Below are positions 15,350 through 33,679 of a stretch of DNA of 40,632 bases, piece by piece (the stretch's first letter is position 1; each line of letters opens with the position of its first letter). The stretch is from IMG/VR virus record IMGVR_UViG_3300046543_000205, positions 1 to 40,632 of that record; one strand, 5' to 3'. Position numbers and translations under genes: made by a program. Below the pieces are notes generated by a model. The model searched no databases, was not told the origin of the DNA, and saw only the letters and a program-made list of their open reading frames with translations. This DNA is from a virus.

Positions 15350-15441
15350 GTGACGCTGTGACGGTTTGATAGCTGTTTCTGGTATCCCAATGAAAATCCA
15401 CAAGGAAAGCCAAAACACCCCTTCGAACGTCACTCCGTCAC
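15350..15441 (+). repeat. 92-bp intergenic repeat element, copy A
   Basis: Copy B lies at 33587-33679. Both share an uninterrupted 19-base core TGTTTCTGGTATCCCAATG (A-rich after it) and GTGACG doublets at the left end that are inverted as CGTCACTCCGTCAC at the right end. In each copy an early promoter follows (immediately in A). The ends could pair in RNA as a long stem. Function unknown. Confidence 0.75.
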
Positions 15442-15442
15442 C

Positions 15443-15473
15443 GGGAATTCGTTGCTCTCTCTCAAGTCCGTAA
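15443..15473 (+). promoter_or_regulatory. Early promoter motif a
   Basis: GGGAATTCGTTGCTCTCT followed by the less conserved TCAAGTCCGTAAG. One of six related sites. phiC31 early genes are known to be read from a family of highly similar phage-specific promoters, and these sites match in number, place and uniformity. It would drive 15500-17114. Confidence 0.7.
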
Positions 15474-15499
15474 GCATCCCCACGGAGAGAGGGTCAGCA

Positions 15500-16339
15500 A
15501 TGACCAGCGTTCGCACTATCCAGCGCGGCGGCAGCCGGTTCTACGTCCACCCGGACGCCCCGGAAATCAAGGTGCCCGGCGTCACCAGCGTTGTGGGCAT
15601 GCTGCCCAAGCCGTTCCTGCAATTCTGGAATGCCAAGATGGTGGCGGAACTTGCGGTTGACTCGCTGCCGTTCGTCGCGCAGATGGCTGAGCGGGACCGG
15701 TCCGGCGCCGTGGACTACCTCAAGGGGGCCGCACGGCGCTACACCAAGATTCGCGCCGAAATCGGCAGCGCGGCACACGACCTTTTCGAGCGGATGATCC
15801 GTGGTGAGTTCGTCGGCCACGTCCACCCGGACCTGATTCCGTACCGCGACCATTTCGCCGATTTCCTCGCTGCCGTCAACCCTGAGCTTGTCGGGGCTGA
15901 GGATGTGGCGTGGAGCGACGCGCACGAGTATGCCGGTAGCTTTGACGCGATTCTGCGCGTCTGGCTTGACGAAGAGGGCAATCCGACCCCGGACCGTTCC
16001 GGCGATCCTGTCCTGTTGATCGTGGACTGGAAGACCAGCAAGGACACCTACCCGGACGTTGCGCTACAGATGAGCGCGTACGCTCACGCTGACCGCATCA
16101 TCTCGCCGGACGGAACTTCCCGCCCCATGCCGGAGTTTGACGGAGCTGCCGTGCTCCACATCACCCCGGATCAGTGGGCTTTCAAGCCCGTGCGCATCGA
16201 CCCGGAGATTTTCGATTTCTTCCTGACGCTCCGCAAGGTCTTCACGTGGGACCGGGACGTGTCCAAGACCGTCATCGGGCGCGCAATCGCCAAGTCTGCC
16301 GCCAAGCTGGTGACCGGCACGCAGCGACGGGGGAAGTAG
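15500..16339 (+). CDS. PD-(D/E)XK nuclease (Cas4/RecB-like exonuclease)
   Basis: 279 residues from ATG 15500 with GGAGAGAGGG upstream. The catalytic core is visible: GSAAHDLFE (about 90), GSFDAIL with the first acidic residue (about 148) and LLIVDWKTSK (about 173-182) with the D-x-K triad, then LQMSAYAHA, the QxxxY-type motif. These nucleases resect DNA ends in phage recombination. It is the first gene after promoter a. Confidence 0.82.
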   Translation: MTSVRTIQRGGSRFYVHPDAPEIKVPGVTSVVGMLPKPFLQFWNAKMVAELAVDSLPFVAQMAERDRSGAVDYLKGAARRYTKIRAEIGSAAHDLFERMIRGEFVGHVHPDLIPYRDHFADFLAAVNPELVGAEDVAWSDAHEYAGSFDAILRVWLDEEGNPTPDRSGDPVLLIVDWKTSKDTYPDVALQMSAYAHADRIISPDGTSRPMPEFDGAAVLHITPDQWAFKPVRIDPEIFDFFLTLRKVFTWDRDVSKTVIGRAIAKSAAKLVTGTQRRGK

Positions 16340-16545
16340 TGGCACGCCAGATGGCACAGGACAGTGAGCACGTCTACCGCGCTGTGGTCAGCGTGGACGG
16401 GGCAGTGTCCGTCTACGGGCCGTACGCCACGCAGGGAGCGGCCAGCACCGCCATTTCGCGCGAGCGTGGCGACTACTGGAATCGTGGCAAGGAAGTTGCC
16501 GGGTATGTCGAGTGCCTTTCGGGCCCGTGGGAGAGGATCTACTAA
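16339..16545 (+). CDS. Small protein between nuclease and RNA ligase
   Basis: 68 residues from GTG 16339, which overlaps the nuclease stop and follows GGGGGAAG. MAQDSEHVYRAVVSVDGAVS, then YGPYATQGAASTAI. It reads like a small beta-alpha protein; no family recognised. Translational coupling on both sides (TAATG at its end) suggests it is made together with nuclease and ligase. Confidence 0.7.
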   Translation: MARQMAQDSEHVYRAVVSVDGAVSVYGPYATQGAASTAISRERGDYWNRGKEVAGYVECLSGPWERIY

Positions 16546-17114
16546 TGGCTGAGTTCACCCCGTGGCCGAAGACCAAGCGGCTGTTCCGGGATATCACCGT
16601 GACCGAGAAGCTAGACGGCACCAACGCCGCTGTGCACGTGGTCGAGAACCCGGAGCTTCCCGGCACCTACGCGGTTTCGGCTCAGTCCCGCAACCGGCTG
16701 GTCTACCCCGGTGACGACAACTACGGCTTTGCCGCGTGGGTCGCTGAGAACGCCTCTGCGCTGGCCGAACTACTAGGCCCGGGTCTCCACTTCGGCGAGT
16801 GGTGGGGGAGGGGCATTCAGCGCGGCTACGGGCTTGCTGAGCGCCGTTTCTCGCTGTTCAACACGGACGTGCACCGGCACACCTACGGGGACCTTGGCGG
16901 AGTGATCGTGACCGCCGTTCCCGTGCTGTATCAGGGGACGTTCAGCGAAGCCCGCATCCGGTCGGCACTCGGCAGGCTCCAACTCTGCGGGTCGGTGGCT
17001 GCCGCTGGGTTCATGAACCCGGAGGGTGTGTGCGTCTGGCACTCGCAGACCCGGCAGGTTCTCAAGGTCACGCTGGACAGCAACGACGCCGGTAAGTGGG
17101 AGACCGCCCGCTAG
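16545..17114 (+). CDS. RNA ligase (T4 Rnl2-like)
   Basis: 189 residues from the ATG overlapping the previous stop. Nucleotidyltransferase motifs in order: motif I EKLDGTNAAVH with the AMP-accepting Lys22; FGEWWGRG (motif III-like); EGVCVWH (motif IV-like) and QVLKV (motif V). It seals nicked RNA using ATP. It is short, so only the catalytic domain is present. Together with the phage tRNA genes it could repair tRNAs cut by host anticodon nucleases, although no 5'-kinase/3'-phosphatase of Pnkp type is seen. Confidence 0.82.
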   Translation: MAEFTPWPKTKRLFRDITVTEKLDGTNAAVHVVENPELPGTYAVSAQSRNRLVYPGDDNYGFAAWVAENASALAELLGPGLHFGEWWGRGIQRGYGLAERRFSLFNTDVHRHTYGDLGGVIVTAVPVLYQGTFSEARIRSALGRLQLCGSVAAAGFMNPEGVCVWHSQTRQVLKVTLDSNDAGKWETAR

Positions 17115-17136
17115 CACCTACCAGAGCTGGTAGGTG
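17115..17136. promoter_or_regulatory. 22-bp inverted repeat 7 (CIR-like operator)
   Basis: Perfect AG copy right after the RNA ligase stop. Seven bases later lies TACGCT (17144-17149), a possible -10 box for the endolysin gene. Confidence 0.8.
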
Positions 17137-17150
17137 ACTCAACTACGCTT

Positions 17151-17178
17151 CCCCGCCCTGGAATTCGCCAGGGCGGGG
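17151..17178 (+). terminator. Perfect 11-bp GC hairpin before the CHAP endolysin
   Basis: CCCCGCCCTGG and CCAGGGCGGGG surround a six-base loop. There is no T-run. It may stop transcripts of the RNA ligase operon, or stabilise the 5' end of the endolysin mRNA. Confidence 0.6.
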
Positions 17179-17205
17179 CTCACCCATGCCCCGAAAGAGG
17201 TACGC

Positions 17206-17967
17206 ATGTCCGGTGTTAACGCAATGCTCGCTGAGGCCAAGCGCTGGGTTGACCAGGGTTTCGTAGAGGGACCCGGCAACAACGAGACCCCGTTTGGCGC
17301 GTGGTACCACGACCAGTACGAGCCGTGGTGTGACCAGTTCGCGTCGTACGTGGGCGAGGCTTCCGGCAATGCTGACGTGGTCGGCCACTTCGAGTACTGC
17401 CCCAGTCACGTGGATTGGTTCCGCCAGCGTGGCCAGTGGGGTGATTCCCCGCAGGTTGGTGCGCTGGTCTTCTATTCGTGGGGGCAGAACGGCGTAGCCG
17501 ATCACGTCGGTATCGTCGTCTCTTTCGATGACGGGTTCATCAACACCTATGAGGGCAACACCTCTTCCGGCGACGCGGGTAGCCAGGCTAACGGCGGTGG
17601 CGCCTACGCCCGTACGCGGCCCCGTAGCGGCCTGATCCTGGGCTATGGCTACCCGGCCTACTCCGGCGACAGTTCGCCCGCTCCTGCCCCCGCTCCGGCC
17701 CCGCAGAGCGCCTACGGTCCGCCGTTCCCGGGGGAGTACCTGCGGGTGCAGTCCCCGATGCAGCATGACGGGAATGTGGAGACGTGGCAGGCGCGCATGC
17801 ATGAGCGGGGCTGGTCGATCACCGTTGACGGTTGGTTCGGCAATGAGTCCGCCACCGTGGCGCGTAACTTCCAGCTCGATTCCAGCGCGCACGGGTGGCC
17901 GCTCTCCGCTGACGGTGTGGTTGGTCCGGCCACGTGGTCCGCAGCGTGGAACCGGCCCGTTTCGTAG
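17206..17967 (+). CDS. Second endolysin: CHAP peptidase with peptidoglycan-binding domain
   Basis: 253 residues from ATG 17206 (GAAAGAGGT upstream). An earlier GTG at 17134 lies in the inverted repeat and is unlikely. CHAP amidase/peptidase motifs: catalytic Cys in EPWCDQFASYVG (about 45) and His in ADHVGIVVSFDDG (about 102), with NTYEGNT after it. A Pro/Ala linker (SSPAPAPAPAPQ) leads to a PG_binding_1-type domain (MHERGWSITVDGWFG, LSADGVVGPATWSAAW). It cuts peptide parts of the wall, complementing the GH25 enzyme. It sits in the early region rather than in the lysis cassette and has no signal peptide. Confidence 0.87.
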   Translation: MSGVNAMLAEAKRWVDQGFVEGPGNNETPFGAWYHDQYEPWCDQFASYVGEASGNADVVGHFEYCPSHVDWFRQRGQWGDSPQVGALVFYSWGQNGVADHVGIVVSFDDGFINTYEGNTSSGDAGSQANGGGAYARTRPRSGLILGYGYPAYSGDSSPAPAPAPAPQSAYGPPFPGEYLRVQSPMQHDGNVETWQARMHERGWSITVDGWFGNESATVARNFQLDSSAHGWPLSADGVVGPATWSAAWNRPVS

Positions 17968-17970
17968 GCC

Positions 17971-18004
17971 GGGAATTCCTTGCTCTCTACCAAGGCCAGT
18001 AGAT
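17971..18004 (+). promoter_or_regulatory. Early promoter motif b
   Basis: GGGAATTCCTTGCTCTCTA followed eight bases later by CCAGTAGA. It would drive the gene at 18028. Confidence 0.72.
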
Positions 18005-18027
18005 CACCAACTCACGCAGGAGAGAGC

Positions 18028-18423
18028 ATGAGCATGCGAATCAAGGCCACCGAAGCACAGGTAATGTCCACGCTGCGGGCGGTGGTCGCTGAGCGTCCGG
18101 GGTACGTCTACAACGCCCCGGAGCACATGCGGACTGAGGACAACGGCAACGAGTGCTTCTATGTCCACGTGGACCGCCACGGGGGGCGCCCGGAAGCCGG
18201 TTGCCTGATTGGCGCGGTGCTGAGCCGACTTGGCGTTCCGCTCGCAGAGTTGGCCAAGTGGGAGCACTTCGGCGTGTCCGTCATGGCCGGTGCTGTGGTG
18301 GAAGCGTCCGTGGACGTGGTCAGCGTGCTGGCCATTGCACAGGATCGGCAGGACAACGGCGCCACGTGGGCAAAGGCTCTCGCTGCTGCTGAGCACGGCG
18401 CTCCGGCTGGTATTCGCGTCTGA
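18028..18423 (+). CDS. Early protein of unknown function
   Basis: 131 residues from ATG 18028 with AGGAGAGAG upstream. It contains MSTLRAVVAERPGYVYNAPE, ECFYVHVDRHG and GCLIGAVLSRLGVPLAELA, then a helical C-terminus. The Gly-Cys-Leu-Ile-Gly stretch is common in small actinobacterial proteins of unknown role. It forms its own unit between promoter b and a terminator. Confidence 0.75.
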   Translation: MSMRIKATEAQVMSTLRAVVAERPGYVYNAPEHMRTEDNGNECFYVHVDRHGGRPEAGCLIGAVLSRLGVPLAELAKWEHFGVSVMAGAVVEASVDVVSVLAIAQDRQDNGATWAKALAAAEHGAPAGIRV

Positions 18424-18427
18424 CCCG

Positions 18428-18463
18428 AAAGCCCCTGACTACTCCGGTAGTTGGGGGCTTTCT
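18428..18463 (+). terminator. Intrinsic terminator
   Basis: AAAGCCCC..ACTA pairs with TAGT..GGGGCTTT, then TCT. It ends the 18028 unit. Confidence 0.78.
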
Positions 18464-18477
18464 GCATTCCCGGGGCC

Positions 18478-18510
18478 GGGAATTGCCTGCTCTCTAGAAA
18501 GTCCAGAGAC
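18478..18510 (+). promoter_or_regulatory. Early promoter motif c
   Basis: GGGAATTGCCTGCTCTCTAG followed by CCAGAGAC. It differs at two bases from the main form. It would drive the operon starting with the directionality factor. Confidence 0.72.
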
Positions 18511-18515
18511 ACGGT

Positions 18516-18556
18516 GAAGCGGTCCGGGCCGGTGAGAGAAACCCCCGGGCCGCTTC
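18516..18556 (+). promoter_or_regulatory. 13-bp hairpin in the leader of the directionality factor gene
   Basis: GAAGCGGTCCGGG and CCCGGGCCGCTTC form a stem with one G-U pair and a 15-base loop, just downstream of promoter c and upstream of the AAAGGAGAG ribosome site. No T-run. It could act as attenuator or mRNA stabiliser. Confidence 0.6.
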
Positions 18557-18578
18557 GGCAAACAAAAGGAGAGCGCCA

Positions 18579-19271
18579 ATGGCGATGCGTATTTTCGAGA
18601 CCGACCCTGAGGCCAAGCCGAAGCCCCGTTTTACGGATGACACGGTGGGCCGGTTCCACTCCGGCCGCTCCGTCAACAACGTGCCTGAGTCGCTTTCGGA
18701 GTGGCGCATCACGACCGGCGACCCTGAGGTTTCGGCGGCAGTCGCTCAGCTCTTCGGCGGCACGCCGGAAGAGACCGACAGCACCTCTGAGAACTACATT
18801 GAGGTTCTGTCCGACGCGAACAAGGTTCTCATCGTCCTTGACGGCCCCGGGGCCATCACCTCGGACATGAAGCTCTGGAACCGCTCTCAGCTCGTCCACC
18901 ACTGTGACGGGGTCGAGTTCCTGAGCCCGGAGACCGACGCTGGCCGCCCCTGCGGTTGCCCGGCCCTGTTTGCGGAGCGCAAGGCAGCCGCTAAGGCGTT
19001 CCGGGGTCCGTCCCCCAGCATCAACATTCAGTTCCGGCTTGCCGACGACTACGACCTTGGCCTGTTCCGCTTCCAGTCCGGCGCTTGGACGCTCGCTGAG
19101 GTGCTGCACGAGGTAGAGAACGCCCTTGCGCGCGTTCAGGGTGAGGCGCTGGCCGAACTGTCCCTTGAGCTGGTCGAGTACACCACCAAGGCCGGTCGGA
19201 ACGTCTCCTACCGCAAGCCCGTGGTCAAGGTGCTCAAGTCCTACGCGGACGCGATTGCCGACCCCCGCTAA
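18579..19271 (+). CDS. Gp3-like recombination directionality factor
   Basis: 230 residues from ATG 18579 (AAAGGAGAG, eight bases). phiC31 gp3 (244 residues) binds integrase and turns it from integration to excision. The opening MRIFETDPEAKPKPRFTDD with FHSGRSVNNVPESLSEWRI, then LFGGTPEE, the cysteine cluster HHCDGVEF...CGCPALFA and the end VEYTTKAGRNVSYRKPVVKV fit the Gp3-like family as I remember it. Position in the early region and presence of a serine integrase agree. It heads an operon with several small genes (19318-20275). Confidence 0.72.
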   Translation: MAMRIFETDPEAKPKPRFTDDTVGRFHSGRSVNNVPESLSEWRITTGDPEVSAAVAQLFGGTPEETDSTSENYIEVLSDANKVLIVLDGPGAITSDMKLWNRSQLVHHCDGVEFLSPETDAGRPCGCPALFAERKAAAKAFRGPSPSINIQFRLADDYDLGLFRFQSGAWTLAEVLHEVENALARVQGEALAELSLELVEYTTKAGRNVSYRKPVVKVLKSYADAIADPR

Positions 19272-19317
19272 CTCGCTGAACTGCCAACCCACAGACCCGA
19301 CTTAGGAGAGAACAACC

Positions 19318-19548
19318 ATGGCGCTCTACCACGTGTTCCGCACCGACGCGACCGACGAGAACGAGTATGACGCGTTCGTGGTCCGGGCCAAGGGCCGCAA
19401 GCAGGCTCTTGCCCTGATCACCAAGGGTCCGGCCGATCAGCCGTTCCAGGGCGTCAAGGCCGACGGCTCCAACGTCAGCGTGGTGCGAATCCAGGACACC
19501 CGCGACACGGACAACCGCGTCATCGTGGCGTCGTTCTTCGGCGCGTAA
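19318..19548 (+). CDS. Small early protein
   Basis: 76 residues from ATG 19318 with TTAGGAGAG upstream. ALYHVFRTDATDENEYDAF, then VRAKGRKQALALITKGPA. Reads as a small beta-alpha-beta protein with a C-terminal strand (NRVIVASFFGA). Function unknown. Its stop overlaps the next ATG. Confidence 0.72.
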   Translation: MALYHVFRTDATDENEYDAFVVRAKGRKQALALITKGPADQPFQGVKADGSNVSVVRIQDTRDTDNRVIVASFFGA

Positions 19549-19718
19549 TGCCCGACAGCGAGAAGCGCGAGCACATGCGAACTGTCTTGCGCGGCACAGA
19601 AGATGAGGCGATCCGGGGTCCGCTGTGGGAGTGGGCCCCGGAGTGGCGGCTAGCCGTAATCCATGAGCGGCGACGCCGGTTCGGCTGGGATGACGACGAA
19701 GGGCTTGGGAATGGCTAA
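19548..19718 (+). CDS. Small early protein
   Basis: 56 residues starting in TAATG with the previous stop. MPDSEKREHMRTVLRGTEDE, then a Trp-rich middle (LWEWAPEWRLAVIHERRRR) and acidic end. Charged, no membrane segment, no family recognised. It overlaps the next gene by eight bases, consistent with a coupled operon. Confidence 0.65.
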   Translation: MPDSEKREHMRTVLRGTEDEAIRGPLWEWAPEWRLAVIHERRRRFGWDDDEGLGNG

Positions 19719-20001: not shown

Positions 20002-20275
20002 GCGCGGCACCGTAACCGACTACGCCGGAGAGGAGCTGTACCGGGGTGACATGGTCGCCTACGCGGTGCGGCAGGGCAACCGGGTCCGCATGTCGGATGC
20101 GCTAGTCCTCAAGGTCACTGCGGTACTTGAGGGCGGCAGGCTTCGGCCCATGCTGCACGTGCAGCCCACTGGCGTGGAGAGCGGGTTCACTAAGCGTCGG
20201 TCCCTGCGGACTGAGTGGATCAGCGCTGAGCACGTGCGGCTAGTCGCTTCGCAGGTGGCCAGCAGAGACGAGTAA
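19994..20275 (+). CDS. Small basic early protein, SH3-like
   Basis: 93 residues from GTG 19994, overlapping the previous gene. AKRGTVTDYAGEELYRGDMV, then AYAVRQGNRVRMSDALVLKV. The strand pattern (short beta strands, basic) recalls SH3/KOW-like barrels but no motif proves it. Last gene of the directionality factor operon. Confidence 0.65.
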   Translation: MAKRGTVTDYAGEELYRGDMVAYAVRQGNRVRMSDALVLKVTAVLEGGRLRPMLHVQPTGVESGFTKRRSLRTEWISAEHVRLVASQVASRDE

Positions 20276-20280
20276 GAGCC

Positions 20281-20322
20281 AAGGGCCGGACCGTACCTAG
20301 ATGGTGCTGTCCGGCCCTTTCG
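20281..20322 (+). terminator. Intrinsic terminator
   Basis: AAGGGCCGGAC pairs with GTCCGGCCCTT (11 bp) around an 18-base loop, then TTCG. It closes the 18579-20275 operon. Confidence 0.8.
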
Positions 20323-20328
20323 CGTCGG

Positions 20329-20362: not shown

Positions 20363-20536
20363 GTGGTGGTCTATATCGCGCTCGGCAGTGCGCTGGCGAT
20401 AGGCGACGTACGGCAGTTGGGCGCTGGGGATGTGGTCTACGTCCATGGCAGCGCAGTGCGGCGGCAGGACATTGGGCGGTATTGGGATGCGCTTCGCGTG
20501 GCTTGGGCCCGTGGCGCTGAAATTAGGTGGGTTTGA
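20363..20536 (+). CDS. Small protein of unknown function
   Basis: 57 residues starting at GTG 20363, seven bases after AAAGG. A start at GTG 20348 would lie in the inverted repeat. VVVYIALGSALAIGDVRQL, then GAGDVVYVHGSAVRRQDIGR. Mixed strands and helices, no family recognised. Stop overlaps the next ATG (TGATG). Confidence 0.55.
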   Translation: MVVYIALGSALAIGDVRQLGAGDVVYVHGSAVRRQDIGRYWDALRVAWARGAEIRWV

Positions 20537-20628
20537 TGAGCTTCCCGAACTTCGTTCTTGAGGTGTTCGCCGTTATTGGCGGGTACCACGCGGGCCGCAC
20601 GGTTGCCCGGTGGTTCTTCCGTGGCTAA
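20536..20628 (+). CDS. Mini-protein, possibly membrane-associated
   Basis: Only 30 residues (MSFPNFVLEVFAVIGGYHAG, then RTVARWFFRG). Hydrophobic first half and basic end. It overlaps both neighbours by a few bases, which supports translation, but at this size the call is tentative. Confidence 0.45.
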   Translation: MSFPNFVLEVFAVIGGYHAGRTVARWFFRG

Positions 20629-21031: not shown

Positions 21032-21110
21032 AAATCGGCCCGAGGCCGGCATCGGGTGTAACGGGTCAAAAACGGACATAGAGGCTCCCGCGGGGACGAC
21101 AGAGAGTGAC

Positions 21111-21141
21111 GGGAATTCCTTGCTCTCAAGAGAGGCCAGAG
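21111..21141 (+). promoter_or_regulatory. Early promoter motif d
   Basis: GGGAATTCCTTGCTCTC followed by CCAGAGA after nine bases (one base shorter than the others). It would drive primase-helicase and perhaps DNA polymerase. Confidence 0.72.
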
Positions 21142-21153
21142 AGAGGAAAACCC

Positions 21154-23589
21154 ATGAAATTTGCTGACGTGCTTACCCGCTTCGCCGACGTGACCGAAGA
21201 GGCGGACGGGGGGTATCTGGCGCTGTGCCCCGCACACACAGACTCCCGTCCGTCCCTCCGCATCTGGCGCGGTGACGATCTCAAAGTGCGGCTAACATGC
21301 CGTGCCGGTTGCTCAACTGACCAGGTGATTGCCGCCGTTGGGTTTGAGTGGGCAGCGCTGTTCAATGCCACGGGGGAGGGGCTGACCGTCCCCAAGGAAC
21401 CCCGTTCGCTGGTGGGTCCGGGGCACACTGCCGCGCTGGCCATGTACGTGGACCGGGCGGCTGAGTGGCTGCACGACCCCACGTCGCAGGTTGGCGCTGA
21501 CGCGCTGGTCTACGCCGCTGAGCGGTTCGGCCTTGACGCTGACGTTGCCCGGGATCAATCCCTTGGGGCCGACGACGGTTTCAGTATTCGCAACTTCGGT
21601 TACCGCTCAAGGGCGTTCACCCGTTTTCCCCGGCTCACGGTCCCGCTCATGGACTTCCGTGGCGTGGTCCGTGGCTTGCAGGGTCGAGACCTCAGCGGGC
21701 AGTGCCCGGGACGGTGGGTTGGGCTGAGCAACCCTGACGGGGCTAGGTGGTCCCCCTACGGCGTTTTCAGGGGGCAGGGGTCCTACGGGGTCACCCTGGT
21801 TACGGAAGGCCCGGGGGACGCGCTCACAGCGGTTTCTGTGGGCTATGACGCCGTGGCCATCCGGGGCGCGTCGCTCGCCGGTTCCCCTGAACTGATCACC
21901 GAACTTGCCGCCGGTCTCAAGGGTTCTCAGGTGGTCGTAGCAGGCGACAACGACACGGCGGGGCAGGGCTTCACGCGTCGTCTCGCTGACGGTCTCGCAG
22001 AGCACGGCGTCCGGGTGTTCACGCTGGCCATTCCTCACGCGGGGGACGACCTGACGGATTGGCGCATGCGGGACAAGCGGGCGTTCCCTGCGCTGCTGCA
22101 TGCTGCGGTCAAGTCGGCTCGCCCGGTTGGGGACTCGGACGAAGCGGCGGCGCAGGCCGTTTCCGCTGAGATGACCGACCGAACCGGCGCAGACGTGGTC
22201 AGCCGTGACCAGGGCAAGGAAGCTGCACGCGTTCTCGCCGGTCTCATTGAGCGGTACGGCGAGAGTGACGCCATGAACGCTCACGCGCTGGTCGCCTGGT
22301 CTGAGGGACGCGTCAAGTTCGCTGCGGGGCTGGGGTTTTACGTGTGGAACGGCCGTGTCTGGGAGCGCTCAGAGGTAAAGGTCCGGCAGGAAATCCACCG
22401 CATGGGCGCGGCGCTTGTGCTCGCTGGCGAGACGCAGAAAGCCCGGGGGTTCACCATGACCAGCCGGATTGATGCCCTCATGACCGAGCTTCGCAGCGTG
22501 CCGACTGTCCACGTGGACGCTGCCGATTTCGACGCTCGCCCGGACCTCTTGAGCTTCCGCAACGGCACCGTGGACTTGCGCACAGGCACGCTCCGGCCGC
22601 ACAGCAAGGCGGACATGGTGACCTACTGCCTTGAGCTGGACTACCGGGCTGACGCCACCTGCCCCCGCTGGGAGTCGTTCCTTACGGAGATTTTCCCGGG
22701 CAACCCCGAACTGCCGGACTACATGCGCCGGTTGGTCGGCTACGGCATCACTGGCCACGTGGCTGAGCAGTGCTTTGCCGTGCTGTGGGGCAAGGGTGCC
22801 AACGGCAAGAGCGTGCTGACCGACACCCTTACGGCGGTCTTCCGGTCGGTTTCCAAGACAACCCCGTTCGCCACCTTTGAGGAAAAGGCGTCCGGCGGAA
22901 TCCCCAACGACGTTGCGGCGCTGCGAGGTTCGCGCCTGGTCATGGCCGCTGAGGGTGAGTCAGGTAAGCCCATGAGTGAAGCCGTGCTCAAGCGGGTGAC
23001 CGGAAAAGACATGATTGCCGCCCGGTTCCTGCGGCAAGAGTTCTTTGAGTTCAAGCCGAGCTTTTTGCTCATGCTGGCCACCAACCACAAGCCCAAGTTC
23101 AGGGGTCAGGACGAGGGTCTGTGGCGACGCGTGAAGATGATCCCGTTCAAGCGCTGGTTTGCCCCGCATGAGCGTGACCACAAGCTTGACGCCAAGCTGT
23201 TGGCTGAGTCTGAGGGCATTGCCGCGTGGGCCGTGCGTGGCGCTGTCGAGTGGTTCAGCGGCGGGCTCAACGATCCGGCGGTCGTTCAGCAGGCAGGCAA
23301 GGAATACCGCGAGACCAGCGATGCACTCGCCGGTTTCTTCCCGGGCGTGCTTGAGCCATGCCCGGATGAGTGCGAGATGAACGGCACGGACGCGTTTAAC
23401 GTCTATCTCGAATGGTGCGAAGCGGAGAACCTGCCAAGCCGGGAGCGGTGGACGCGCCGGAGCTTCTATGACGCCATGGAAGAGCGCGGAGTGACGCGCC
23501 GGAAGACCCGAACCGGGATTGCCCTCATGGGCGTGCGTGATGCGGCCAAGAGCCCTGCCGCCGTGGGTCCGGGCATTTTCGCGAAGTAG
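21154..23589 (+). CDS. Primase-helicase (TOPRIM plus SF3 helicase)
   Basis: 811 residues from ATG 21154 (GAGAGGAAAA). Order: zinc-binding primase head (CPAHTDSRPS ... CRAGC, about 24-52); TOPRIM domain with EGPGDALTA (about 215) and AGDNDTAGQGF (about 262); D5-type linker region (about 400-520); SF3 helicase with Walker A LWGKGANGKSVLTD (about 544-557) and the SF3 block LLMLATNHKPKFRGQDEGLW. It makes primers and unwinds DNA at the replication fork. phiC31-type phages carry such a fused enzyme next to the polymerase, as here. Confidence 0.9.
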   Translation: MKFADVLTRFADVTEEADGGYLALCPAHTDSRPSLRIWRGDDLKVRLTCRAGCSTDQVIAAVGFEWAALFNATGEGLTVPKEPRSLVGPGHTAALAMYVDRAAEWLHDPTSQVGADALVYAAERFGLDADVARDQSLGADDGFSIRNFGYRSRAFTRFPRLTVPLMDFRGVVRGLQGRDLSGQCPGRWVGLSNPDGARWSPYGVFRGQGSYGVTLVTEGPGDALTAVSVGYDAVAIRGASLAGSPELITELAAGLKGSQVVVAGDNDTAGQGFTRRLADGLAEHGVRVFTLAIPHAGDDLTDWRMRDKRAFPALLHAAVKSARPVGDSDEAAAQAVSAEMTDRTGADVVSRDQGKEAARVLAGLIERYGESDAMNAHALVAWSEGRVKFAAGLGFYVWNGRVWERSEVKVRQEIHRMGAALVLAGETQKARGFTMTSRIDALMTELRSVPTVHVDAADFDARPDLLSFRNGTVDLRTGTLRPHSKADMVTYCLELDYRADATCPRWESFLTEIFPGNPELPDYMRRLVGYGITGHVAEQCFAVLWGKGANGKSVLTDTLTAVFRSVSKTTPFATFEEKASGGIPNDVAALRGSRLVMAAEGESGKPMSEAVLKRVTGKDMIAARFLRQEFFEFKPSFLLMLATNHKPKFRGQDEGLWRRVKMIPFKRWFAPHERDHKLDAKLLAESEGIAAWAVRGAVEWFSGGLNDPAVVQQAGKEYRETSDALAGFFPGVLEPCPDECEMNGTDAFNVYLEWCEAENLPSRERWTRRSFYDAMEERGVTRRKTRTGIALMGVRDAAKSPAAVGPGIFAK

Positions 23590-25580: not shown

Positions 25581-25834
25581 ACGGTCATGTAAAGACCTTT
25601 CAGTAACTTGCCGGACCGTCAGAAACGTGACGTTAGGTCGTCTACCCGTGTAGTTCAAGGTGTGACGGGCGGGTAACGATCGCTGACCCGTCATACCTAA
25701 GGCGTAGCCCGGCCCCCCGCCTTGGATTCGAAAGATAACTGTTGACTCCCTGACGGAACGTCAGGTGATCAACCCCGTTGATCACGTCTCACTAGCGGCG
25801 TACGTTCAGCGCAGCAACGGCGAACGGCAAGCGC

Positions 25835-25868
25835 AGCCCCGTCTAGCGACTCCCCTAGGCGGGGCTTG
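25835..25868 (+). terminator. Terminator-like stem before promoter e
   Basis: AGCCCCG pairs with CGGGGCT around an 18-base loop, then TGTCC. Weak T-run. It would separate the region above from the sigma-like gene. Confidence 0.5.
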
Positions 25869-25919
25869 TCCGTGTCGTTCATGGCCTGTTTTGGCATGTC
25901 CGCATGCCCGCTCCGTCTC

Positions 25920-25951
25920 GGGAATTCCTTGCTCTCTACATGAGCCAGAGA
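25920..25951 (+). promoter_or_regulatory. Early promoter motif e
   Basis: GGGAATTCCTTGCTCTCTA followed by CCAGAGA. It would drive the sigma-like gene at 25975. Confidence 0.73.
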
Positions 25952-25974
25952 CCCGAACAGGACGGAAAACAGAC

Positions 25975-26835
25975 ATGATCGACCTCACCGCAGAGCAGAT
26001 TTCCGCCGCTAAGGCCAACGATCTGACGGCAGTCACGGCAGTGATTGAGGCCACCGAAGAGCGCGTGATGCAGCTCGCCCGGAAGTACGCGGCGAACGGC
26101 GCCTACGTAGATGACGCGCTGGTTGAGGACTTGGCGCAGGTGGGCCGCATAGCCGTCTGGCAGGCCATCGGCCGGTTTGAGGGTAAGGACGTGGCTCAGT
26201 TCTTCACGTTCATTGACCGCACCCTGAACGGGGCGCTGAGCGACGAACGGCGCACCCTCACCCGGTCGGGCGTCTCGCCTCAGGCGGTCAAGGACTTTGA
26301 GACCGCGCTCACCGTGGCCGCTGGCGACCCGTACGAAGCTCAGAGGCTGGTCTGCACGGCCGATGTGATGGGGGCCCGCAAGATGAGCCCGGAGCTTGCC
26401 TATGCGGCCCGTATGGCGTGGCAGGGGGCAACGTCGATTGACCACCAGTTCCACTCTCCCAAGGGGAGCGGCTACCGCGAGGGAAACCCGGAGTCTGACA
26501 AGGCGATGACCCCGGCGCAATTCCTGGTCAGCGAGATTGGCATCCCGGAAGACCTGTTGACCACGGCAGACGTTGTGTCGGCCCGTCAGCGCGAGGTGCG
26601 CAAGACCGTTCACGCCACACTGGACAAGCTGAGTGACCGCATGTCCGGCGTGCTGCGGCGCGACTACGGATTCCGGGACGTCCCTCACTACACGGACGGC
26701 ACCAAGGCCAGCGTGGGCAGCGCCGATGAGGAAATGGCGGCTGACATGGGCGTCACGGTCTACCAGTTGCAGCAGGCGCGCACCAAGGGCAAGGCGCGTT
26801 TCCGTGAGCTGTACCTCAAGGGTGCGAACGCGTAA
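25975..26835 (+). CDS. Sigma-70-like transcription factor
   Basis: 286 residues from ATG 25975 (AGGACGG upstream). The N-terminal half has a region-2-like block: VEDLAQVGRIAVWQAIGRFE, then AQFFTFIDRTLNGALSDERR, matching the sigma-70 core-binding and -10 region. The C-terminal part (LDKLSDRMSGVLRRDYGF, ... DMGVTVYQLQQARTKGKARF) looks like a region-4 helix-turn-helix with the usual spacing. A long insert lies between them. It may direct RNA polymerase to late promoters, or amplify the early ones. An in-frame open stretch upstream is not needed for translation. Confidence 0.7.
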   Translation: MIDLTAEQISAAKANDLTAVTAVIEATEERVMQLARKYAANGAYVDDALVEDLAQVGRIAVWQAIGRFEGKDVAQFFTFIDRTLNGALSDERRTLTRSGVSPQAVKDFETALTVAAGDPYEAQRLVCTADVMGARKMSPELAYAARMAWQGATSIDHQFHSPKGSGYREGNPESDKAMTPAQFLVSEIGIPEDLLTTADVVSARQREVRKTVHATLDKLSDRMSGVLRRDYGFRDVPHYTDGTKASVGSADEEMAADMGVTVYQLQQARTKGKARFRELYLKGANA

Positions 26836-29468: not shown

Positions 29469-29753
29469 ATGCCACTGCCAGTGGTGAGGCGGAGAAGGCC
29501 ACTTGACCCGGACGCTTCGGCGGCTGGTCAAGTGGATTCTCCGAGTAGTAGCCAGAATCCCGAACGACCGGCCGCCATTTCCGTGCCCGCGCGACGGCGC
29601 GACAAGGCCACCCCCGAAGCCTTCAAAGCCATGCGCGCTGACTACCTCAAGGGTGAGGCGGAGCGGCGGGCCAGGGGCTACCGCTACGTGTGCCCGGCGT
29701 GCAGCCACTCCCACCCGGTGGGGGAGGAGGTGCAGGAGCGTGACGCAGCCTGA
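29469..29753 (+). CDS. Small zinc-knuckle protein
   Basis: 94 residues from ATG 29469, five bases after AAGGGGA. A basic, low-complexity N-terminus (RRRRPLDPDASA, PARRRDKATPEAFKAMRADY) leads to a C-terminal YVCPACSHSHPVGEEV with CxxC and His residues that could bind zinc. Function unknown. It overlaps the next gene by 14 bases. Confidence 0.6.
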   Translation: MPLPVVRRRRPLDPDASAAGQVDSPSSSQNPERPAAISVPARRRDKATPEAFKAMRADYLKGEAERRARGYRYVCPACSHSHPVGEEVQERDAA

Positions 29754-29910
29754 GCCTGAGTGCCCGTCGTGCGGGTGGTTGGACGCCCTAGCGGCGCGCC
29801 TGGTGGCCCCCGATGGGGAGTACCGGGATGAGTCGGCCCTTGCGGACGTAAGGGTGTTGCGCAAGCGGCACGAACCGGAGTGCTCGAACCCGCGCGGGGG
29901 TGCCGAGTGA
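29740..29910 (+). CDS. Small zinc-knuckle protein
   Basis: 56 residues from GTG 29740 (GGAGGAGG upstream). CPSCGWLDALAARL at the start and HEPECSN at the end can form a CCHC zinc site. Its stop overlaps the next GTG (GTGA). Confidence 0.62.
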   Translation: MTQPEPECPSCGWLDALAARLVAPDGEYRDESALADVRVLRKRHEPECSNPRGGAE

Positions 29911-30092
29911 GCGACCCCGACGGCCCGGAGTACCTGGCTCCCGCGTGGACGTATGCCTTGGGTGGCCCTAGTCCAGAGCCGGACGACCAGGACGACCAGC
30001 CCGACCCGGCCCCGGAGTTGGAGCCCGTGCCGGAGTCCGACACCATGCGACGACTGCGGGAGCAGATGGCCCGCTTCCGGCACCAGCACTAG
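29907..30092 (+). CDS. Small acidic protein
   Basis: 61 residues from GTG 29907. Strongly acidic and Pro-rich (PEPDDQDDQPDPAPELEPVP), then a helical basic end (MRRLREQMARFRHQH). Likely disordered; unknown role. Confidence 0.55.
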   Translation: MSDPDGPEYLAPAWTYALGGPSPEPDDQDDQPDPAPELEPVPESDTMRRLREQMARFRHQH

Positions 30093-30105
30093 GAGAGACG
30101 ACACC

Positions 30106-30243
30106 ATGCCCGTGAACCACAACCGCTCGCAGGTCGGCTACTTCGACGCCCACCCGCCCCGGGACGCGTACGCCAAGGCCGCTGAGCCCGCGACGGAGAC
30201 CACCGAGCCCGAGCCCGCCGAGCCGGAGCAGGAGACTGCGTGA
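30106..30243 (+). CDS. Mini-protein, Glu/Pro-rich
   Basis: 45 residues from ATG 30106 with AGGAGAG. RSQVGYFDAHPPRDAYAKAA, then a Glu/Pro tail. Probably disordered. Its stop overlaps the next GTG. Confidence 0.5.
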   Translation: MPVNHNRSQVGYFDAHPPRDAYAKAAEPATETTEPEPAEPEQETA

Positions 30244-30413
30244 CCATACCGGCGCCGTGCCCCAAGTGCGGCGGTACAAAGGTGCAGTTGGGGATGAAGG
30301 TCGTCCTGCGGACCAATCCTGACGGAACGCAGGTGCCGGACACCGAACCCACGACGGAGACCTGTTCCGGCTGTGGCGGTACGGGATTCAGCGGGCACCT
30401 GTTCGTCATGTAG
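30240..30413 (+). CDS. Small zinc-ribbon protein
   Basis: 57 residues from GTG 30240. CPKCGGTKVQLG and CSGCGGTGFSG make a four-cysteine zinc ribbon of the DnaJ-like type. Last gene of the mini-gene run, followed by a terminator. Confidence 0.62.
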   Translation: MTIPAPCPKCGGTKVQLGMKVVLRTNPDGTQVPDTEPTTETCSGCGGTGFSGHLFVM

Positions 30414-30426
30414 GACCCCCGAAACG

Positions 30427-30470
30427 GCCCCGTCCGTGCGTCGTCCCCCGTGGCGCATGGGCGGGGCTTT
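30427..30470 (+). terminator. Intrinsic terminator
   Basis: GCCCCG..CC..GCG pairs with CGC..GG..CGGGGC, followed by TTT. It isolates the DUF402 gene from the genes before it. Confidence 0.68.
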
Positions 30471-30489
30471 CGCGTGGGATGCTCCCGGC

Positions 30490-31128
30490 ATGAACCTTGA
30501 GCCCGGAACCGTTGTCAGATGGCATTTCCGCTTTGGCGGTCAGACAAGCGTGGTGGTCCCTCTGAGGGTCGTTCAGGAGACCGCAGAGGGTCTTTACCTC
30601 TGGGTGGCCGGTAACTCGCCAGCGTGGCGCGCAGAGCTTCCCAAGGGGGTGCATCTGCGGGACATAGACCCTGCCGACCGGCCGCCCGGCGGCTACCCGT
30701 TGAAGCCGGGGACTTGGTTCCCCGACAGCGCGCTGATCTACCAACCGCACGGGGTTGGGGGAGTGGACCACGCGGTGTGGTGGCGGTTCGACCTAGAGCA
30801 CCGGTTTACGGGCTGGTACGTGAACCTTGAGCACCGAACGCGAATCGGCGCGGATATCCACGTGGCCGACCTTGAACTAGACCTGACTGTCCGGCCGGAT
30901 GGGGCGTGGGAATGGAAGGACGAAGCCTCGTTCATTGCCAAGACCGGCCACCCTACGTATTGGACGACCGAACAGGCTGCCGCAATCCGGGCGGAAGGTG
31001 AGCGGCTGGTCAAGCTCGCAACGGAGCGGGCGTTCCCGTTCGATGGCTCCCGCACCGACTTCCGGCCCCCGGCTGAGTGGATCGTCCCAAACCTGCCCGC
31101 GCACCCCGGTATGGGCAGCCGGACATGA
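30490..31128 (+). CDS. DUF402-family protein
   Basis: 212 residues from ATG 30490. The block VWWRFDLEHRFTGWYVNLEH with DLELDLTVRPDGAWEWKDEA is the DUF402 signature; relatives include FomD and a B. subtilis nucleoside-diphosphate hydrolase, so it may act on nucleotides. No ribosome site precedes it, and a weak -10-like TGGGAT ends nine bases upstream, so the mRNA may be leaderless. It is closed in by terminators on both sides next to attP, the layout of a cargo (moron) gene that could be expressed in the lysogen. Confidence 0.75.
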   Translation: MNLEPGTVVRWHFRFGGQTSVVVPLRVVQETAEGLYLWVAGNSPAWRAELPKGVHLRDIDPADRPPGGYPLKPGTWFPDSALIYQPHGVGGVDHAVWWRFDLEHRFTGWYVNLEHRTRIGADIHVADLELDLTVRPDGAWEWKDEASFIAKTGHPTYWTTEQAAAIRAEGERLVKLATERAFPFDGSRTDFRPPAEWIVPNLPAHPGMGSRT

Positions 31129-31130
31129 CG

Positions 31131-31164
31131 AAGCCCCGCTCACTCCACTGTGGGCGGGGCTTTC
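31131..31164. terminator. Bidirectional terminator
   Basis: AAGCCCCGC and GCGGGGCTT form a 9-bp stem. A T-run follows on the + strand; the AA before the stem gives a shorter one on the minus strand. It serves the DUF402 gene and the converging minus-strand genes. Confidence 0.8.
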
Positions 31165-31171
31165 TGCTGGG

Positions 31172-31324
31172 CTAAGCGCACTGCGGGCACTGGCACGGGG
31201 GCCACGCCTGCCGGTTCATGTCGAACGGCTCAGCGGTCACGCCGGAATGCTCGCGTATCTCCGTGTGCGCGTACTGCTGGCCGGTCTCGCTGATCTGGTA
31301 GGTACGAATGGTGATGCCGGGCAA
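31172..31324 (-). CDS. Minus-strand small protein with Cys-rich end
   Basis: 50 residues read on the minus strand from TTG (31324), about nine bases after GGAGGG. PGITIRTYQISETGQQYAHT, then EIREHSGVTAEPFDMNRQAW and a CQCPQC end that could bind metal. Second gene of a short minus-strand pair. The non-ATG start makes the exact N-terminus uncertain. Confidence 0.55.
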   Translation of the reverse strand: MPGITIRTYQISETGQQYAHTEIREHSGVTAEPFDMNRQAWPPCQCPQCA

Positions 31325-31372
31325 ACCGCTGTCATCCCTCCGGTTGAATGTTGTACATGGGCCAACCGGCGA

Positions 31373-31555
31373 TCAGCCGGAGGCATTCCCGCTGGCCGGA
31401 TACAGGTAGAGGAATACCGCCCACCCGCGTCCCCATTTGCGCAGTCCTACGCGCTCCGGCCGACCCATATTGGTGAGGGTGCGGGCCATGTCCCGGAGCT
31501 GGTCGATTGCCTCACGCCGGGACAGGCACCCGGTCACGCGTCGTACCTCGTTCAT
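31373..31555 (-). CDS. Minus-strand small basic protein
   Basis: 60 residues on the minus strand from ATG 31555, preceded by GGAAG; another ATG lies three codons upstream (31564). MNEVRRVTGCLSRREAIDQL, then RDMARTLTNMGRPERVGLRK and WGRGWAVFLYLYP. Basic, with a helix and a strand-rich end. First gene downstream of the minus-strand promoter at 31635-31662. Unknown function; placement beside attP suggests expression in the lysogen. Confidence 0.62.
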   Translation of the reverse strand: MNEVRRVTGCLSRREAIDQLRDMARTLTNMGRPERVGLRKWGRGWAVFLYLYPASGNASG

Positions 31556-31612
31556 GGCTTCCACGCTAGGGCGTGTGCCCGCTGAGCACGTCCTACCAGG
31601 GGCTGAACGGGG

Positions 31613-31669
31613 TCACAGTCGGGTGTCGTCGATGATCACAATGGGGCGTCCTTGCAGGTCAACGCCCAT
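31613..31669 (-). CDS. Possible 18-residue minus-strand peptide or gene remnant
   Basis: ATG at 31669 (minus strand): MGVDLQGRPIVIIDDTRL. It overlaps the minus-strand promoter and has no ribosome site. The sequence reads like the end of a real protein, so it may be a remnant cut off near attP. Tentative. Confidence 0.28.
   Translation of the reverse strand: MGVDLQGRPIVIIDDTRL
31635..31662 (-). promoter_or_regulatory. Minus-strand host-type promoter
   Basis: On the minus strand TTGACC, 16 bases, TGTGAT. The start would be near 31628, upstream of the two minus-strand genes. Confidence 0.5.
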
Positions 31670-31691
31670 CGTGTGGGTGGGTTGACTTCGC

Positions 31692-31711
31692 AAGTAACCT
31701 TTGAGTTACTT
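31692..31711. other. attP core, phiC31-like
   Basis: A perfect palindrome with AAGTAAC and GTTACTT around CTTTGA. It shares GTAACCTTTGAGTT with the phiC31 attP as I remember it, whose crossover is at the central TT. It lies directly upstream of the integrase, as in phiC31. The flanks differ from phiC31 (no CCAACTGGGG arms). Confidence 0.75.
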
Positions 31712-31729
31712 ACTGAAGGGGACTACGCT
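31701..31729 (+). promoter_or_regulatory. Integrase promoter overlapping attP
   Basis: TTGAGT (31701-31706), a 17-base spacer and TACGCT (31724-31729). Transcription would begin about 31736, at the integrase ATG 31737, giving a nearly leaderless mRNA. The -35 box begins at the attP crossover dinucleotide. Confidence 0.5.
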
Positions 31730-31736
31730 TCCCACC

Positions 31737-33479
31737 ATGGCGACACCAGGGGCGATCAGGGGCATGAACACACACGCGGCAGTCTATACGCGGCAGTCTG
31801 AGGGCCGGGAAAACCAGTCGGAAGCTTCCACCGAAGACCAGCGGGACCGGTCGGAAGACCGCGCGAGAACTCTTGGCGCGACCAGCATCACCAAATACGA
31901 CGAAGAGCTAGGCACGTCGGCCTACGGCGGCAAGGCTCGCCCGGTATTTGAGCAGATGCTCACCGACTGCCGCGCCGGTCGAATCAACATGATCGTTGTG
32001 TACTACATCAGCCGCTTTTCGCGCGTTGACCCGCTAGACGCTATCCCCGTCGTCTCGGAGTTGCTGAACCTTGGCGTAACCATCGTGAGCGTGAATGAGG
32101 GGCAGTTCCGCAAGGGCAACCTTATGGACCTCATTCACCTGATCATGCGCCTTGACGCTGCTCACCAGGAAAGCCGAAACAAGAGCGTTGCCGTTACCGG
32201 CGCAAAGAAGATGGCCCGGGAATTGGGCGGCTACACGGGCGGAAAAGCACCCTACGGGTTCAAGCTGGAACCGCACACCGTCACCCGCGAGAACGGGCGG
32301 CCAATCGTTATCCAGAAGCTCGCCATTGAGGAATCCGAAGCGGCTGTTATCCGGCAGATCACTGCCGAAATCGTCGCGCAGCGCCCCGGGGAGGGCGGAT
32401 GGTTCGGCAGTGACGGAGCATCCGTTACCGGCATTGCAGCCAAGTTGGACGCCCAAGGAATCCCGACGCGTGGGCAGACGGTAGGAAAGAAGTTCAGCGA
32501 AAGCCGGTGGGCGGCTCAAATGCTCCGCCGTGTGCTTAAGGACCCCCGCACCGCTGGCTACGGGGCAGAGCCGCAATACAGCACCCGCAAGGACGGGAAG
32601 CCGGGAACGACCGTCACCGGGTACAAGCTAGTGCGCGACCCGGACACCATGATGCCGGTCATGATGCACCCTGAGATCATCCCGCCGGAGCAATGGCACG
32701 CAGTCCAGGCGTGGCTAGAGACGCGCACCCGGACCGGCGAGCGGATCGACCGGGGGCAATCCCTGGTGACCGGTCTTGGCATGGCGTTCTGCGAATGCGG
32801 GGCGAGCGTCAAGACTCACGGAATGAAGAGTCGGCACGGCACCCAATACCAGCAATACCGCTGTTCTCGCGTCCACCCGGAACCGGGAAAGCACGCGGGG
32901 AACGTGTCGATTTCGCAGACAGCGCTTGACGACTACGTGGCCCGCCGTGTGTTCGCGCTGATTCAGAATGCCGGTGGCGACCCGGACACGCACGACGTGT
33001 TGCAGGAAGCGGCACGGCGGTTCGGCAGGACGACTGAACGGCCGGACGTGGCCGCTGAGCGCTCCCGGATAGTGACCGAGCGGGCGGAAGTCGTGGCAGC
33101 GCTTGAGGAGCTGTACGACGAACGCGACGCAGGGGGGTTCAGGACGTCCGTAGGCCGCACGAGGTTCCTCCGGTCCGAACAGACCCTGTCAGACCGCCTG
33201 ATGGCCGTTGAGGCCCGTCTAGGGGACCTTGACGAAGCGGAGGTTCCGGCGCTCCCGCTGGGGGAGTGGGTCAGGGACGACGACGCAGGGGCGGACCCGA
33301 TCGGCCCGGGGTCGTGGTGGCACGGTGCCAGCGTGGTGGAGCGGCGCGCGTTCCTGCGGCTGTTCGTTGAGCGCATCACGCTGTACAAGGCACCCCACCA
33401 GGGCGGCCAGAAGCGCACGCCGGACGAGATGGCCCGACGCGTTCGGGTCGAGTGGGTACACACCCCGACGGAGGAGTAA
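31737..33479 (+). CDS. int: Large serine integrase (phiC31 type)
   Basis: 580 residues from ATG 31737. Another in-frame ATG (31764) puts the catalytic Ser at position 12, as in phiC31; the TTG at 31701 lies in attP and is unlikely. Catalytic motif VYTRQSEGREN, then YISRFSRVDPLDAIPVVSEL and MDLIHLIMRLDAAHQESRNK define the resolvase domain. The recombinase domain follows (GGKAPYGFKLEPH; RVLKDPRTAGYG), then the zinc ribbon CECGASVKTHG...YRCSR and a coiled coil (ERAEVVAALEELYDERDAGG) that controls direction. It joins attP to a host attB; excision needs the Gp3-like factor. C-terminal end is shorter than phiC31's. Confidence 0.95.
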   Translation: MATPGAIRGMNTHAAVYTRQSEGRENQSEASTEDQRDRSEDRARTLGATSITKYDEELGTSAYGGKARPVFEQMLTDCRAGRINMIVVYYISRFSRVDPLDAIPVVSELLNLGVTIVSVNEGQFRKGNLMDLIHLIMRLDAAHQESRNKSVAVTGAKKMARELGGYTGGKAPYGFKLEPHTVTRENGRPIVIQKLAIEESEAAVIRQITAEIVAQRPGEGGWFGSDGASVTGIAAKLDAQGIPTRGQTVGKKFSESRWAAQMLRRVLKDPRTAGYGAEPQYSTRKDGKPGTTVTGYKLVRDPDTMMPVMMHPEIIPPEQWHAVQAWLETRTRTGERIDRGQSLVTGLGMAFCECGASVKTHGMKSRHGTQYQQYRCSRVHPEPGKHAGNVSISQTALDDYVARRVFALIQNAGGDPDTHDVLQEAARRFGRTTERPDVAAERSRIVTERAEVVAALEELYDERDAGGFRTSVGRTRFLRSEQTLSDRLMAVEARLGDLDEAEVPALPLGEWVRDDDAGADPIGPGSWWHGASVVERRAFLRLFVERITLYKAPHQGGQKRTPDEMARRVRVEWVHTPTEE

Positions 33480-33506
33480 AGTAAGGCTTGCCTAACCTAG
33501 TTAAGA

Positions 33507-33534
33507 GGCGGTCACGCAAAGTGGCCGCCTTTTG
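33507..33534 (+). terminator. Intrinsic terminator after integrase
   Basis: GGCGGTCAC pairs with GTGGCCGCC around GCAAA, then TTTT. Confidence 0.87.
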
Positions 33535-33586
33535 GCATGTCAGCGGGCAGAGGCGCGAGCTAAAGCCCGGATATTCGCTCTTGGGT

Positions 33587-33679
33587 GTGACGATGTGACG
33601 TTCGGATAGTTGTTTCTGGTATCCCAATGGAAATCCCACAAGCAAACCCAAACCGACCCTCCGTTCGTCACTCCGTCAC
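33587..33679 (+). repeat. 92-bp intergenic repeat element, copy B
   Basis: Matches copy A (15350-15441): same GTGACG doublet at the left, the 19-base core TGTTTCTGGTATCCCAATG, the AAATCC-ACAAG region, and CGTCACTCCGTCAC at the right. About three quarters of positions agree. It precedes promoter f by about 45 bases. Confidence 0.75.

Follow-up and report, generated by a model that had tools for sequence, protein, structure and literature searches.

Paired 92-bp elements of phiC31-like phages are predicted to be replication origins recognised by the primase-helicase gp9a

What is the role of a 92-bp element that occurs twice in a phage genome, 18 kb apart, at places where no gene is apparent? 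We examined this question in an IMG/VR record analysed over its positions 1-40,632 (this whole stretch of 40,632 nucleotides is referred to as the window). By its gene set the record belongs to a phiC31-like, Streptomyces-type phage and, besides the genes listed below, it carries phiC31-like genes for the gp3 recombination directionality factor, Pol I and terminase. The first and last 156 bases of the window agree at 154 positions, and the record looks complete and circularly permuted. We propose that each copy of the element is a predicted binding site for the primase-helicase gp9a and most likely a replication origin, with a probability of roughly 0.83. The two copies and their surroundings are as follows.

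13687-15168: c-repressor-like gene, before copy A
15350-15441, no strand assigned: copy A, 92 bp, predicted origin 1, upstream of the gp1 exonuclease gene
15350-15363, + strand: left doublet of A, GTGACG-CT-GTGACG, predicted gp9a binding sites (from sequence and co-variation)
15374-15416, no strand assigned: AT-rich inner palindromic centre of A with the 19-mer, candidate melting region (GC percentile 0.3%)
15428-15441, - strand: right doublet of A, GTGACG-GA-GTGACG on this strand (from sequence)
15443-15461, + strand: early-promoter motif after copy A, a neighbour outside the element
15500-16339, + strand: gp1, Cas4/RecB-like exonuclease, adjoining copy A (PHROG exonuclease)
31701-33479, + strand: large serine integrase gene int, adjoining copy B (45% identity to phiC31 Int; PHROG integrase)
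33587-33679, no strand assigned: copy B, 93 bp, predicted origin 2, between int and the tRNA cluster
33587-33600, + strand: left doublet of B, GTGACG-AT-GTGACG (from sequence)
33611-33653, no strand assigned: AT-rich inner centre of B with the 19-mer (GC percentile 1.2%)
33666-33679, - strand: right doublet of B, GTGACG-GA-GTGACG on this strand (from sequence)
33726-33744, + strand: early-promoter motif after copy B, a neighbour outside the element
33884 onwards: tRNA cluster, after copy B

When copy A was compared with the window by blastn, copy B was recovered at 83.9% identity over 93 columns (E=2e-23) and there was no other close match. The copies lie in the same orientation, have the 19-mer TGTTTCTGGTATCCCAATG in common and end in exact inverted doublets of the form GTGACG-nn-GTGACG ... 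CGTCAC-nn-CGTCAC. Neither overlaps a likely gene, as A sits between the c-repressor-like gene and gp1 (start 15500) and B between int (stop 33479) and the tRNA cluster. A preliminary description of this locus had reported two untranslated copies with a 19-base core and inverted GTGACG doublets, one before the recombination genes and one before the tRNA cluster, each ahead of an early promoter; all of these observations were borne out. The central 50 bp of copy A have a GC content of 44% compared with 63% genome-wide. The architecture was scored by the agreement of the four end hexamers, with 36 as a perfect score and an AT-rich centre required. Both A and B scored 36, while none of 60 simulated Markov-1 genomes did so and the best of them reached 33. 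These genomes, which have the same dinucleotide make-up, were used as the null in place of reversed sequence, which is invalid for this purpose because inverted repeats survive reversal. The GC skew showed no clear minimum at either copy.

By its core alone the element looks like an orphan, since the 19-mer is private to the window phage and its 16 matches in IMG/VR contigs all fall inside unrelated sequence. A blastn search of phage records with both copies found no match either, because the element is too diverged for this method to detect its counterparts in relatives. What the relatives have in common is an overall architecture without the core: a length of about 92 bp, an AT-rich centre and tandem hexamers in inverted orientation at the two ends. 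The earlier suggestion to look for the core in other phage genomes failed for the core itself and succeeded for the architecture, which is present family-wide, in nearly every phiC31-like phage examined. In phiC31, TG1, phiBT1 and Shawty the element is found at the same two places, before gp1 and after int, with the following positions in three of these phages.

phiC31: copy A at 21668-21758, copy B at 40447-40537
TG1: copy A at 20076-20167, copy B at 39142-39233
phiBT1: copy A at 20489-20580, copy B at 40718-40809

The element is annotated in none of the records examined, and these records contain no annotated replication origin for phiC31. An iterated profile detected the element in 74 of 129 loci at E < 1e-3, and looser inspection revealed it upstream of gp1 in most of the remaining loci. 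When the region 3' of int was scanned automatically, 35 of 40 distinct loci gave a candidate; the one in L155 is spurious, the true copy being that in L200. In the other five loci (L018, L021, L037, L049 and L158), the element can be recognised by eye or is slightly displaced. Some relatives have copy B only, and loci without copy A that retain one copy near int include L051, L053, L063/L135, L131, L132, L134 and L136. The copy after int is nearly always kept, and the copy before gp1 is usual and can be lost. No copy was seen in the prophage record G003 (L061), the end of which may be missing since no int was found in it either.

Averaged over 68 half-sites, the half-site reads GTGAcGaAGTGacG.TgTGacgcc.a.Tt.gGaTt.cCctaaGag, that is, two clear repeats 8 bp apart and a degenerate third, followed by an inner box that extends up to the centre. 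The elements are among the most AT-rich stretches of their own genomes (GC percentile 0.04-2%). Copies A and B are 0.75 identical within a genome, a value lowered by the loose setting of some element ends, compared with 0.59 between genomes. The outer repeats differ between genomes and fall into the types xTGACG, xTGTAG, GTGTCG, GTGCAG and CGGTGA, and A and B of one genome are of the same type.

This variation in repeat type allowed a search for a protein that varies with it. The end hexamers were used to type each element, partly by hand curation, and several loci with a poorly defined element or none were set aside. We then scanned 2,685 alignment columns from ten early proteins (gp1, gp3, gp4a, gp4, gp5, gp7, gp9a, gp11, gp12 and gp52) in 49 declustered genomes. 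The two columns most informative about type were both in gp9a, at positions 800 (nMI 0.717) and 805 (nMI 0.602), with the next best column at 0.36. In the window the protein is encoded 5.7 kb and 10 kb from the two elements, and it is 64-67% identical to its phiC31, TG1 and phiBT1 counterparts.

21106-23589, + strand: gp9a homologue, primase-helicase and predicted element-binding protein (Toprim, D5_N, DUF5906 and C-terminal winged helix)
23353-23541, + strand: predicted winged-helix domain of gp9a, residues about 750-812 (AlphaFold2)
23503-23520, + strand: codons of gp9a residues 800 (K) to 805 (I), of which 800 and 805 are the wing positions that track repeat type

K800 is present in all 51 scoreable loci with xTGACG repeats and in none of 25 loci of other types, and the xTGTAG type goes with R800/M805 in 9 of 9 declustered genomes. 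Distances over gp9a residues 721-820 track the type best (r 0.38, versus 0.02-0.20 elsewhere in gp9a). On a tree of gp9a residues 1-720, from which the C-terminus was left out, we counted at least 8 changes of type and 7 of K800. All six independent switches agreed (p=0.031, the minimum reachable with six). L063 (ATGACG, K/I) is nested in a CGGTGA clade, and L107 (GTGTCG, R800) lies beside xTGACG relatives and has I805 instead of Q. One locus, L087, goes against the K800 rule with R800/I805 and GTGACG/GTGGTG-like repeats; with its element poorly defined, it was not among the loci scored. Seven more named phages (Shaeky, Sycamore, Euratis, Samora, Lilbooboo, Rowa and Sebastisaurus) obey the rule, and the truly new cases among them are fewer than seven since Rowa is of the L076 sequence type and Sebastisaurus is close to RemusLoopin. 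The co-variation in sequence is indirect evidence of direct binding of gp9a to the predicted sites, which we infer with high confidence. It is more likely than not that the wing and the repeats switch together as a diversifying origin-initiator code, with the pairs K/I-xTGACG, R/M-xTGTAG, R/Q-GTGTCG and R/N-GTGCAG. If true, such a code would prevent relatives that infect the same cell from replicating one another's genomes.

The doublets had previously been suggested to bind a regulator, and their role as predicted protein sites is supported because the repeats co-vary with a DNA-binding domain. The part of that suggestion that was not supported concerns the early promoters. The doublets could in principle bind a regulator, or the sigma-like gp12, to control the early promoter downstream, perhaps with the two copies brought together in a DNA loop. 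Such transcription control would fit the early-promoter motif that follows both copies in the window, and gp12 does have a Sigma70 region 2 domain.

25765-26835: gp12, with a Sigma70 region 2 domain

An element that controls a class of promoters should be found at each of them with constant spacing, and this one is not. The phage promoter motif, GGGAATTCnTTGCTCTCT, occurs 7 times in the window and 5 of these have no element; the gp1 promoter region is kept without copy A in nine related loci; and the distance from element to promoter ranges from about 35 bp (phiC31 copy B) to about 250 bp (TG1 copy B). In addition, gp12 tracks the repeat type poorly (best column nMI 0.27 versus 0.72 for gp9a). 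We therefore consider transcription control unlikely as the function of the element, and a site bound by gp9a could still affect a nearby promoter as a side effect.

The genes that adjoin the copies, int and gp1, raise a different possibility, namely that the element is a centromere-like partition site, a packaging site, a site for recombination by gp1 or a second integrase-related site. Consistent with a role of gp1, its whole-protein distances correlate with repeat type more strongly than those of whole gp9a. This correlation is attributed to the linkage of gp1 to the adjoining copy A, as sliding windows and per-column mutual information have settled: no gp1 column exceeds an nMI of 0.28. 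Furthermore, the gp1 proteins of CGGTGA-type genomes are about 80% like that of the GTGACG-type window phage. As for the integrase, the attP site in this family is located upstream of int and not at copy B: it is annotated so in phiBT1, and the attP of phiJoe lies 18 bp upstream of int (PMC5311408). Since a site of this kind would also leave the type-tracking residues of the primase unexplained, we regard partition, packaging or recombination as quite improbable. A serine-integrase attachment site proper, which is about 50 bp long, 5' of int and present once, was rejected as a match for an element of 92 bp that is present twice and lies 3' of int.

Where are the two type-tracking residues in the gp9a protein? 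An AlphaFold2 model built with 43 homologues and without DNA gave a pLDDT of 81-89 over the winged helix and a moderate mean of 69 overall, and residues 800 and 805 are predicted to lie on the two strands of the wing. The best Foldseek matches were winged helices, RFX5 with a probability of 0.99 and ASFV C962R with 0.93, none of them at E < 0.001. In RFX proteins it is mainly the wing that contacts DNA. An RFX-like contact would suit specificity residues at this position, and we take it as a lead. Pox_D5 was detected in 37 of the 43 gp9a homologues, with the window protein itself below threshold, and a PDB sequence search with the C-terminal domain returned nothing significant other than another D5-like primase.

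The closest parallel to this combination of protein and site is found in phage P4. The gp9a family has the make-up of a P4-type initiator, with Toprim, a D5/SF3 helicase and a C-terminal Pox_D5 winged helix in one protein; P4 alpha has the same Pfam set in the same domain order and aligns with gp9a at E=2e-12 (hhalign). In the summary given in PMC4234260, which cites Ziegelin and Lanka 1995 and Yeo et al. 2002, P4 alpha binds the repeats of the P4 origin, unwinds the DNA and primes synthesis. On the DNA side, the element has the short direct and inverted repeats around an AT-rich stretch that are typical of P4, and the two separate sites of P4 have their presumed counterpart in copies A and B of the window, phiC31, TG1, phiBT1 and Shawty. 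According to the P4 record, crr consists of two forward repeats, a 35-bp gap (31% GC as read directly from the sequence) and two inverted repeats, beside attP/int. The phiC31-type phages likewise have inverted groups of repeats about an AT-rich gap and two putative cis sites, one of which adjoins attP/int. The P4 repeat is GGTGAACA, which is similar to the CGGTGA(A) type and has GTGA in common with GTGACG. The P4 ori is annotated with the same repeats as crr. It differs from crr in having type 2 repeats as well, and the two P4 sites are unlike each other, whereas the phiC31-type phages have one near-symmetric 92-bp design at both places and several repeat specificities among relatives. Moreover, crr adjoins the alpha gene, while the phiC31-type sites are several kb from the primase gene.

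Based on this protein class, we infer melting, priming and origin activity as the probable functions of the element. The C-terminal winged helix of gp9a would read the GTGACG repeats at both ends, and one helicase ring would be loaded from each side, which is possible because the repeat sites are inverted. Melting of the AT-rich palindromic centre by the two rings would be followed by bidirectional unwinding and priming of synthesis. There would be two such sites per genome, as with ori and crr of P4. Two origins per genome are unusual, and this counts against the origin reading, as does the GC skew, which points to neither copy.

Other initiators show similar features. The Rep proteins of SaPIs and Cch2 of SCCmec are likewise self-loading initiator helicases with initiator-specific iteron origins, and their C-terminal domain recognises the iterons, probably as two hexamers; their origins differ in that they directly follow the helicase gene, and these systems come from staphylococcal islands, several of which have the primase as a separate protein (PMC7581432). 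The preliminary description held that no known feature type explains the element, a view that the origin and crr sites of P4 and SaPI-like initiators have overturned. ORF904 of pRN1 also combines a primase, an SF3 helicase and a C-terminal winged helix, and replication requires an inverted-repeat element of about 100 bp. The pRN1 system differs in that the primase is of the archaeo-eukaryotic type, there are no iterons and only one site, and function needs an intact stem-loop (PMC4234260).

A stem is also the basis of the proposal, made in the preliminary description, that the arms of the element pair in a transcript, as a leader, terminator or sRNA. The single strands do fold better than shuffles (z about -3 with DNA parameters), and the 100-nt stem-loop of the pRN1 origin indicates that a stem in DNA is possible (PMC4234260). 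A structured RNA is expected to belong to a known family or to tolerate wobble pairs. Rfam searches matched only tRNAs and no family for the element, and over 61 elements the outer arms had 42 G.T mismatches against 43 A.C mismatches, so there is no excess of the former. A stem also leaves the tandem doublets and the match to the primase unexplained, and an RNA element is highly improbable. The terminal inverted repeats of about 14 bp and the presence of two copies are reminiscent of a MITE-like mobile element or a chance duplication. This idea is refuted by the fixed positions of the element in phiC31, TG1, phiBT1 and others, which are deeply diverged; types that switch with the primase and the lack of anything similar elsewhere in the window also speak against it, and its likelihood is negligible. 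The alternatives (ALTERNATIVES), namely promoter control, an RNA stem, an attachment or partition site and a mobile element, are each less consistent with the data than a pair of origins bound by gp9a.

An initiator with an iteron origin is a known kind of system. The features that appear to be new are the predicted pair of origins in the phiC31 family, the symmetry of their design and a specificity that switches in step with two wing residues; we found no report of a phiC31 origin in the open-access papers searched, and an earlier mention elsewhere is possible. phiC31 serves as a model phage, its integrase is in worldwide use, and the analysis provides exact coordinates of two predicted origins in this phage and its relatives, a predicted initiator and two candidate specificity residues. 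The natural series of matched origin-initiator pairs makes it testable how a winged-helix initiator changes its origin specificity, and it may supply orthogonal phage replicons for Streptomyces plasmids.

Two further kinds of intergenic site resemble the element in part. The phiC31 repressor operators (CIB) and the R4-type stoperators are likewise short, conserved and repeated in the same genomes. They differ in being 22-bp palindromes (CACCTACCAGAGCTGGTAGGTG, 16 in the window), none of which overlaps the element. In the more distant phage phiSASD1, a wholly different AT-rich inverted element occupies the same two places, at 18878-18980 and 33882-33980.

The correspondence between the phage primase-helicase gp9a, the predicted element-binding protein, and its inverted-repeat element, in which K800 accompanies xTGACG-type end repeats and other residues accompany other repeat types, has a sole apparent exception. 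At this locus (L087) gp9a carries R800 and I805 alongside GTGACG-like repeats. L087, L078, L082 and L140 form one prophage group, and the elements of this group are poorly defined. The AT-rich inverted elements of two other phages (GTCCCA..TGGGAC, GTTTGA..TCAAAC) are unrelated. That of phiSASD1 occupies both places, as do copies A and B in the window, and that of Dubu lies upstream of the exonuclease gene gp1.

phiSASD1 (L241), 18878-18980 and 33882-33980: AT-rich inverted element
Dubu (L240), 3180-3250: AT-rich inverted element

In L037 and L209-L210 (genome record G025), the element is found on the 5' side of the serine integrase gene int, the apparent reason being an inversion of this gene compared with the relatives. 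The phage record L155 (G012) apparently has two large serine integrase genes in tandem, as seen on the 3' side of int.

The gene preceding copy A (13687-15168) shows distant homology to c, the repressor gene of phiC31 (E=2e-17; 28% over 165 aa). The early region of the window contains an RNA ligase gene and an endolysin gene (16512-17967), whereas the endolysin gene is in the late region in the annotated relatives TG1, RemusLoopin and Shawty. The type of early-promoter motif varies among relatives, being GGGAATTCCTTGCTCTCTA in the window versus GGTCACCGACTCCCTTCATATAGG in phiBT1. The window gp12 and phiC31 gp12 (29958-31148) have a Sigma70 region 2 domain in common. Scattered through the early and late regions of the window are 16 near-identical 22-bp palindromes, CACCTACCAGAGCTGGTAGGTG, which resemble the phiC31 operators (CIB) or stoperators.

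12491, 15443, 17971, 18478, 21111, 25920 and 33726: early-promoter motifs
25765-26835: gp12, Sigma70 region 2 domain
2600-2621, 4896-4917 and 38016-38037: examples of the palindrome

Within the tRNA cluster, two tRNA-like genes with irregular anticodon loops were identified by ARAGORN at 34166-34235 and 34290-34360 (anticodon gg and tc); of this irregular pair, only the former has an Rfam tRNA match.
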